Below the pieces are notes generated by a model that worked only from the letters and a program-made list of their open reading frames with translations, had not been told where the DNA came from and did not search any database. From contig CALLIL010000009.1 in the NCBI GenBank assembly GCA_938009755.1, positions 62,001 to 126,000 on the forward strand: a DNA stretch of 64,000 nucleotides, in the 5' to 3' direction. Of the stretch, positions 61,512 to 63,005 are shown piece by piece; positions within the stretch are counted from its first letter, which is position 1; the number at the start of each line of letters is the position of its first letter. The translations under genes were made by a program, and so were the position numbers. The DNA is from an uncultured Marinomonas sp. GTDB taxonomy: Bacteria > Pseudomonadota > Gammaproteobacteria > Pseudomonadales > Marinomonadaceae.

Positions 61512-62435
61512 CTACGTCCACAAAGGCCTAGTCTCCCAATCTAAAGGGAAGCCCATTTTTGTCGTGTCTATATCATGAGTTTTTATTAAATTTTTAACAC
61601 GCGATTTCCAATGATGTTCAGGAGAAATAATATTCATAATGTAGAGAATGATCGTTAAAGTGTTGTAGAGCTTTTTTAAATTTCTATTTTCGTTAGGCAG
61701 GTTCAAAAGACTATTAATCAAGTCACTTGGGCCATTTTTGGGAAGCTTCATTTGTTTAGGGAATACTCGGTTCCATAGCCTTGCATGATGAGCCGCTTTG
61801 TTCCTTACTAAAGATAAGTGCTCGCAAAAAGAGGTCATGATTGCTTCATTAAGGCTATAGGCCTGACTGATCGCCATACGATCGCTTCTCTGGCTTATAT
61901 TGGAAAACCACTTAGATAGTTGTCCCATGGTCATTAACTCAACCACAGCCCATATTGGAGGCAAATCTTCTTTGTACTTTGTTCTTAGGTGGCAAATAAA
62001 GTCTTCGTCACTTTGGTTTACCTCATGTTCTAATTTCCTTCGTCCATTTTGATATTTTCTGTCGTCTTTAAAAGTCTCACTGACAAGGTGTGGATGGGAT
62101 GTATTGTGGCGATGACTTAATTGATAAGCCATTTGCGTGCGCAGAGAAACCTCGATTCGCTCAATAGCATCCATGAGCAATAAACGAAGCTCCCGATCAA
62201 AAGTATATAAGTTAAGCACATCATCAAAAGTGGTTCCTTCCAATATTTGATGAGTGTCATGATCCGTTTCAAATGGAATGCAATAAGCTGCTAGACGATA
62301 GTAATTGAGCTGGGATAAGTAGAATTCAGCTTTGTTTGTGTCTTGGATAATTAAGCCATGAGATTTCAGAATAGTGACCTGTTCTGAAAATGTTTTAGGA
62401 GGTTTATTGAAAGGGATTTTGTTCTGGTCAGTCAT
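61512..62435 (-). CDS. Abi_2 (AbiD/AbiF-like) abortive-infection family protein with HEPN RNase motif
   Basis: FLSQLNYYRLAAYCIPFE-like N-terminal core (YLSQLNYYRLAAYCIPFE), YTFDRELRLLLMDAIERIEVSLRTQMAY, and C-terminal LVRNKAAHHARLWNR (Rx4H). Confidence 0.9.
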   Translation of the reverse strand: MTDQNKIPFNKPPKTFSEQVTILKSHGLIIQDTNKAEFYLSQLNYYRLAAYCIPFETDHDTHQILEGTTFDDVLNLYTFDRELRLLLMDAIERIEVSLRTQMAYQLSHRHNTSHPHLVSETFKDDRKYQNGRRKLEHEVNQSDEDFICHLRTKYKEDLPPIWAVVELMTMGQLSKWFSNISQRSDRMAISQAYSLNEAIMTSFCEHLSLVRNKAAHHARLWNRVFPKQMKLPKNGPSDLINSLLNLPNENRNLKKLYNTLTIILYIMNIISPEHHWKSRVKNLIKTHDIDTTKMGFPLDWETRPLWT

Positions 62436-62439
62436 TTTC

Positions 62440-62506
62440 TACTCCCCAGAAACAAGTAACCCCTCGCAGGGCGCTGATCTTACGGGTAGCGGGAGGGGTG
62501 TTGTTG
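62440..62506 (-). ncRNA. Structured leader/ncRNA upstream of the Abi_2 gene, candidate abiF-type RNA
   Basis: Minus strand ACCCCUC-C-CGCU-ACCCGUAAGAUC-AGCG-CCCUGC-GAGGGGU: 7-bp outer and 4-bp inner stems in an otherwise AT-rich gap, just downstream of TTGCAA-N16-TATAAT. Confidence 0.62.
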
Positions 62507-62512
62507 CTGTTC

Positions 62513-62540
62513 ATTATATCCATTGAATCATCAGTTGCAA
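62513..62540 (-). promoter_or_regulatory. Sigma70-type promoter for the structured RNA / Abi gene
   Basis: Minus strand TTGCAA-N16-TATAAT; predicted start near 62506. Confidence 0.7.
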
Positions 62541-62597
62541 CGTTTTTGTATGCTCTTATTGAGCAAGATTGCAACGGAGAAAACTGGCAAATCCTTA

Positions 62598-62611
62598 TAT
62601 GTTTAAACATA
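62598..62611. promoter_or_regulatory. 14-bp perfect palindrome, candidate operator
   Basis: TATGTTTAAACATA between the XRE gene and the Abi promoter. Confidence 0.4.
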
Positions 62612-62720
62612 CTACCATCCATGAGTACGAATTAGAGAAATTTAAATTTGAGAGTTTAGCTTTTTCCTAGATTACCTATTTTTCTGAAGTTTTGCCTCAA
62701 TTTAAGGGAAAGAATACGTT

Positions 62721-63005
62721 TTAATGGGCAGATAGCGCTTTATAAAAATTCGGGTTTTCTTCAATCGTCGCCAATACTTTCGCCGCCAGCCCTGTAGGGT
62801 TTCGGCGTCTACTTTCCCAACTCTTGATAGTATCAACACTGGTGCCAAGCGCTTTGGCGAAATCCGCTTGAGAGACTTGTAAACTCTGGCGAATGCTCTT
62901 TACATCGGTGATGTCAAAGCGCGTCACTCTCGCCGCTTTTTTATCGCCTTGGTGTATCTCTACGGCTTCTTCTAAAGAGGATTTTAGATCGTTAAAAATG
63001 CTCAT
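62721..63005 (-). CDS. XRE-family HTH regulator / antitoxin-like (NadS/HigA-type)
   Basis: TDVKSIRQSLQVSQADFAKALGTSVDTIKSWESRRRNPTGLAAKVLATIEENP; start at ATG 63005 (MSIFNDLKSSLEEAVEIHQG). Confidence 0.88.
   Translation of the reverse strand: MSIFNDLKSSLEEAVEIHQGDKKAARVTRFDITDVKSIRQSLQVSQADFAKALGTSVDTIKSWESRRRNPTGLAAKVLATIEENPNFYKALSAH

Follow-up and report, generated by a model that had tools for sequence, protein, structure and literature searches.

AbiF is the proposed ancestor of Cas13, and the RNA associated with it the proposed forerunner of crRNA. The general arrangement resembles type III toxin-antitoxin systems such as ToxIN, in which an RNA is the antitoxin of a ribonuclease toxin. 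Phage copies of the ToxIN antitoxin RNA, termed pseudo-ToxI, are known as an escape route from that system. Two AbiF systems are the closest described relatives of the locus considered here. In AbiFCd/RCd22, from the C. difficile prophage phi027, the RNA lies upstream of the gene for the AbiF HEPN RNase and shares a promoter with it, and RCd22 neutralizes AbiFCd in cis and in trans by direct binding, for which its stem is needed (PMC12373285). In PbAbiF/AbiFr (Zilberzwige-Tal et al., as described in PMC12373285 and PMC12737573), whose protein-ncRNA complex is PDB entry 8vz6, RNA-antitoxin action is also reported, according to the summary in PMC12737573.

The window, a stretch of 64 kb of Marinomonas DNA, contains a comparable pair on its minus strand: a 59-nt RNA (AACAAC...TTTCTG, 62447-62505) and, directly downstream, an abiF (AbiD/F, Abi_2) gene of 307 codons (61512-62435). 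We consider it very likely (probability about 0.85) that the locus is a two-part AbiF system composed of a type-III-like RNA antitoxin and a HEPN RNase, and that it is a sequence variant of the known kind. The anatomy of the locus, its conservation, the homology of both parts and their co-inheritance are direct observations.

The protein is a true AbiD/F homologue, as the first-pass annotation had supposed in calling it Abi_2/HEPN. It matches Pfam Abi_2 at 1.2e-51 (176 bits, against a curated cut-off of 25.6), PADLOC AbiD at 1.1e-75 and, over its full length, PbAbiF of 8vz6 at 1.4e-54. The RNxxxH motif is intact and reads RNKAAH, compared with RNQCAH in AbiFCd (PMC12373285); R211 and H216 align with R210 and H215, the HEPN residues of PbAbiF (PMC12373285). 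A NadS-family antitoxin-like gene is located just upstream of the RNA (window 62721-63005, minus strand, and L191), and beyond it is a divergent operon that by eye resembles type I restriction, the whole having the appearance of a small defence island.

The RNA hairpin noted on the minus strand at 62499-62459 is present and reads ACCCCUC-C-CGCU-ACCCGUAAGAUC-AGCG-CCCUGC-GAGGGGU. Its outer stem P1 has 7 bp (ACCCCUC, 62493-62499; GAGGGGU, 62459-62465) and is separated by a 1-nt linker (C, 62492) from an inner stem P2 of 4 bp (CGCU, 62488-62491; AGCG, 62472-62475), both stems being assigned from the window sequence together with the joint alignment described below. The loop is of 12 nt, and a 6-nt 3′ bulge (CCCUGC, 62466-62471) occupies the position of CAAAUC in the consensus of the Rfam abiF family, RF03085. 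The stems, bulge, promoter and spacing all fall as described within 62447-62540. All the sequence claims of the first-pass annotation hold: the hairpin is GC-rich (68%, whereas the preceding 221 nt have 33%), and 23 nt separate the stem from the ATG (62435).

Searched with a degenerate pattern, the 64 kb contain the motif once, and none of 100 shuffled sequences contains it. The motif itself is present once in the window and once in the genome, and in this the locus differs from ToxIN, where the antitoxin is tandemly repeated and the toxin has the ToxN fold rather than HEPN. RCd22 differs as well, as it has a second abiF motif and is separated from the gene by a terminator (PMC12373285), whereas the window has a single motif and no terminator is seen between RNA and gene. 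As for PbAbiF/AbiFr, one RNA motif per protein monomer is expected. The folding energy of 62436-62520 is ordinary (z = -0.77), so that the case for the RNA must rest on comparison and conservation. The same is true of the inner stem, because the minimum-energy fold of the sequence on its own has an inner part that differs from P2. A 64-aa open reading frame that spans the RNA (62428-62622) was considered and set aside; it has no Pfam match, and conservation tracks the RNA instead.

Ahead of the hairpin is the promoter that had been noted from the sequence, with a -35 element TTGCAA (62535-62540) and, after 16 nt, a -10 element TATAAT (62513-62518) located 7 nt before the conserved AACAAC at 62505. 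A TTG-type -35 and a -10 element at 16-nt spacing are found in most relatives, and the 7-nt distance recurs both in relatives and in the phage contig L045. The transcript probably starts at or near 62506-62505.

Conservation of the RNA is pronounced. In all 15 named relatives found through a protein search (58-78% protein identity), which include Marinomonas, Zhongshania, Alcanivorax, Nitrincola, Methylophaga, Endozoicomonas and Kistimonas, an almost invariant copy is located directly upstream of the Abi gene. Between Marinomonas and Zhongshania the RNA is identical at 59 of 59 nt, whereas identity is 67% in the coding sequence and 43% over the preceding 200 nt; because the 59 nt are conserved while the surrounding DNA diverges, the RNA is more than a chance resemblance. 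In three relatives (L036, L039 and L042) an extra hairpin is inserted in the loop, and the stems are unaltered. Further copies precede Abi genes in Teredinibacter, Salinimonas, a Salmonella plasmid and E. coli, where the RNA occurs in 33 of 5,426 genomes, three of which were inspected. In E. coli L059 and L060 the RNA-Abi pair is located inside a methylation-associated defence (MADS) locus, with mads1 and genes for an SNF2-related protein, an AIPR or hypothetical protein and a methyltransferase.

The relationship to the canonical abiF RNA is less direct than a database match. The first-pass annotation had pointed to the abiF motif and named the Rfam model as a check, and that check is negative: RF03085 matches nothing in the window, either at the gathering threshold (37 bits) or at E<=10, and nothing in the 15 relatives, nor does any Rfam family match the leader at E<=10. 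Controls were matched by the same model (L009 at 41 bits; phages at 40-62 bits). The annotation would have given up the abiF-like identity if the absence of a model match had been joined by the absence of conserved pairing; the pairing is conserved, so the identity stands, and it is supported by the shared architecture and by compensatory changes. The variant and RF03085 have in common the location upstream of an Abi_2 gene, an outer stem of 6-7 bp, a 5′ linker of 1 nt, an inner stem of 3-4 bp, a loop of 11-12 nt and a 3′ bulge of 6 nt. They differ in the letters of P1 (CCCCUC/GAGGGG in the variant, CCCGCC/GGCGGG in RF03085), in the first pair of P2 (C-G versus A-U), in the linker (C versus A) and in the bulge (CCCUGC or CACCGC, hence CMCYGC, versus CAAAUM).

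In a joint alignment of 18 variant and canonical RNAs (A4), 98.3% of cells are paired, compared with 78.8% after shuffling, and 7 of 10 pairs have compensatory changes, a number reached by none of 500 shuffles; this alignment was laid out by hand with fixed geometry, which favours structure. Covariation comes only from the comparison of variant with canonical RNAs, as none of the 11 pairs varies inside the variant.

Two alternative accounts of the RNA need to be weighed. A separate antitoxin family might have converged on the same place and shape, and the failure of RF03085 to recognize the RNA is in keeping with this, as are the changes in linker and bulge. We regard convergence as very improbable, however, because the geometry is identical, the flanks AACAA and UUACU of the window RNA are those of the canonical-type RNAs L008, L053 and L054, and intermediates exist. 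L008 and L053 combine a canonical core with window-type flanks, and in the protein tree their Abi proteins stand next to the variant clade; L183-L185 combine the linker A with variant bulges. In that tree the variant RNA is characteristic of one clade of AbiF proteins, adjacent to AbiFs that have the canonical RNA: the variant label requires 2 changes, compared with 19.3 when shuffled, the labels having been assigned by sequence pattern.

It is also conceivable that the hairpin is only a cis-acting leader that controls Abi through attenuation or a hidden ribosome site, with no action on the Abi protein. The short distance to the start codon would suit such a leader, and RCd22 itself also acts in cis through termination (PMC12373285). 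The Shine-Dalgarno sequence GGGGAG (62442-62447) could, as the first-pass annotation proposed, pair with CUCCC of the stem; that pairing is possible in the window, but it is not general, as the GGGG run is absent in L043 and L061. In L035, L040, L043 and L059 the Abi start is further downstream and the RNA is nearly unchanged; the letters of the linker and bulge are conserved, although attenuation does not need them; and near-identical copies of the RNA occur in phages without any Abi gene. A purely cis-acting role is therefore unlikely.

We favour an RNA antitoxin, and suggest the following scheme. The single promoter would give rise to the short structured RNA (62447-62505) and, by read-through, to the mRNA of the HEPN ribonuclease (61512-62435). 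The RNA would bind the RNase as an antitoxin and keep it inactive, the 3′ bulge being probably near the active site of R211/H216 at the dimer interface; a functional role for the bulge is suggested by analogy with that of PbAbiF (PMC12737573). During phage infection the RNA would be lost or titrated, and the RNase thus freed would cut RNA and stop growth. The antitoxin function of the window RNA is predicted from AbiFCd/RCd22 and PbAbiF/AbiFr, and RNA-protein binding, inhibition and toxicity at the window locus would be expected on the same grounds.

A variant AbiF RNA antitoxin is to be expected by homology. The surprising part is that RNAs of both types occur in phages as orphans. When IMG/VR was scanned for the variant, a full-length RNA together with phage genes was found on four contigs (L045, L046, L047 and L049); the RNAs of L045 and L049 are identical, and the stretch of L049 that was read is too short to type its genes. 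A fifth copy is on a phage-like element (L050), and Abi_2 is absent from the whole records of all five. The RNA of L045, which has the same promoter spacing, is identical at 58 of 59 nt to that preceding an Endozoicomonas abiF. A further IMG/VR contig, L048, was rejected as a chance match.

Canonical abiF RNA is found in 91 IMG/VR contigs (L064-L154), one of which (L101) may also be a chance match. An Abi gene is present in the DNA read for 18 of them, most being one C. difficile prophage type, and is absent from the DNA read for the other 73; over the whole records of 49 of these 73, many of them fragments, PF07751 found no Abi_2, while its positive control matched. The search pattern did not constrain the third pair of P2, yet all 53 of 53 distinct loops have complementary letters there, compared with 26 expected from shuffles, and two opposite pair types dominate, related sequences not being independent. 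The RNA stands beside Abi for 19 of 28 RF03085 matches in Gammaproteobacteria but for only 2 of the 56 distinct RNA cores from viruses (p = 3e-10 by Fisher's test, with different methods having been used to find the two sets).

Eight complete genomes of named phages (L155-L162) have an RF03085 match above gathering and no Abi_2 anywhere, the combination of antitoxin RNA present and toxin gene absent that characterizes the proposed decoy class. They are the Aeromonas T7-like phages PT2, T7-Ah, PZL-Ah8 and PZL-Ah152, the T4-like Acj61, the cyanophage S-SZBM1, the Salicola phage CGphi29 and the mycobacteriophage Baka. In the Aeromonas phages the RNA separates the portal (connector) gene from the scaffold gene and closely follows an apparent T7-type promoter, and in Acj61, S-SZBM1 and Baka it is close to tRNA genes or within them. 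Plasmid pT75-VIM has a restriction operon with an Abi gene, and the RNA immediately preceding that gene is matched at 88.9% by a 45-nt query taken from PZL-Ah8. The window RNA itself has no blastn match in the named phages.

We suggest, with somewhat better than even confidence and judging from sequence, that the stand-alone AbiF antitoxin RNAs of unrelated phages (T7-like, T4-like, cyanophages, mycobacteriophages and many metagenomic ones) and of mobile islands are counter-defence decoys, and that they represent a common RNA-based anti-defence strategy, under the pressure of which AbiF/RNA pairs would split up into matched specificity classes, the window variant being one example. Such decoys would keep the host AbiF inhibited, so that stand-alone phage RNAs of this type may switch the defence off. 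A competing view, to which we give appreciable though clearly lesser weight, is that the orphan copies are remnants of decayed AbiF systems, act simply as terminators, or regulate phage genes in cis. Many orphan RNAs have a U-run at the end and could also work as terminators, and phage fragments may miss genes. On the other hand, the complete named phages lack Abi_2 throughout, the letters of the linker, bulge and P2 are kept although useless to a terminator, and the complementarity of the third P2 pair by two opposite pair types points the same way, as do the close matches of L045 and PZL-Ah8 to bacterial antitoxin RNAs.

The nearest precedents for decoys differ in kind. Pseudo-ToxI copies are selected escape mutants, whereas the abiF-type copies are standing genes in many phages. 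RNA anti-CRISPRs (Racr) are likewise solitary phage-encoded mimics of a host defence RNA, directed against the CRISPR-Cas complex instead of AbiF (PMC10651486). Protection of phage 712 from AbiF by a region of sk1 DNA has been reported (Rince 2000, as cited in PMC12737573). RF03085 has no match in sk1 (L163) or 712 (L164), and both phages contain the same two weak matches to the geometry, so the protection is not explained by a recognizable abiF RNA. An abiF RNA has been noted in cyanophage S-CREM1, where it was not interpreted as counter-defence (PMC9964418; PMC12197685). No published proposal of orphan phage abiF RNAs as anti-AbiF decoys was found in a search that had Zilberzwige-Tal et al. 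outside its range, and for that reason this is not proof of novelty.

If the orphan copies in lytic phages are decoys, they would be a simple and widespread means for phages to disarm AbiF defence, and the strategy would be directed against the proposed ancestor of Cas13. The phage orphans make a direct test possible, in laboratory phages such as the T7-like Aeromonas phages and the M. smegmatis phage Baka. The window variant, for its part, constitutes an RNA class that is invisible to Rfam and tied to its own protein clade, which suggests that the specificities of RNA and protein change together.

Finally, 392 genomes of the order were scanned starting from the RNA with R1, a covariance model built from the variant, and 23 of them contain matches, 25 in total. 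About half of the bacterial matches are beside Abi, and roughly half have no Abi within 1.5 kb. Two weak matches were discarded: L186 looks like an ordinary hairpin, and L187 resembles a canonical abiF RNA encoded on the opposite strand. Seven Abi-less loci (L169, L172, L173, L175, L177, L178 and L179) share another setting, in which the RNA adjoins an opposite-strand gene of about 231 aa (VISDVLWASGNDWDREW...), function not assigned, and beyond that gene several of them have defence genes of various kinds. The copy on a Vibrio plasmid (L061) is similar to these on its left side, and in L190, the one locus followed further out, this setting is part of an island where an integrase-like gene adjoins a yicC-like gene, both named by eye. 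Other Abi genes of the Marinomonas group (L012, L017, L018, L022 and L028) have hairpins AACACGGCCCC...GGGGUUUUUU on their 3′ side, which appear to point toward the 3′ end of Abi, as if the RNA were encoded convergently rather than upstream.
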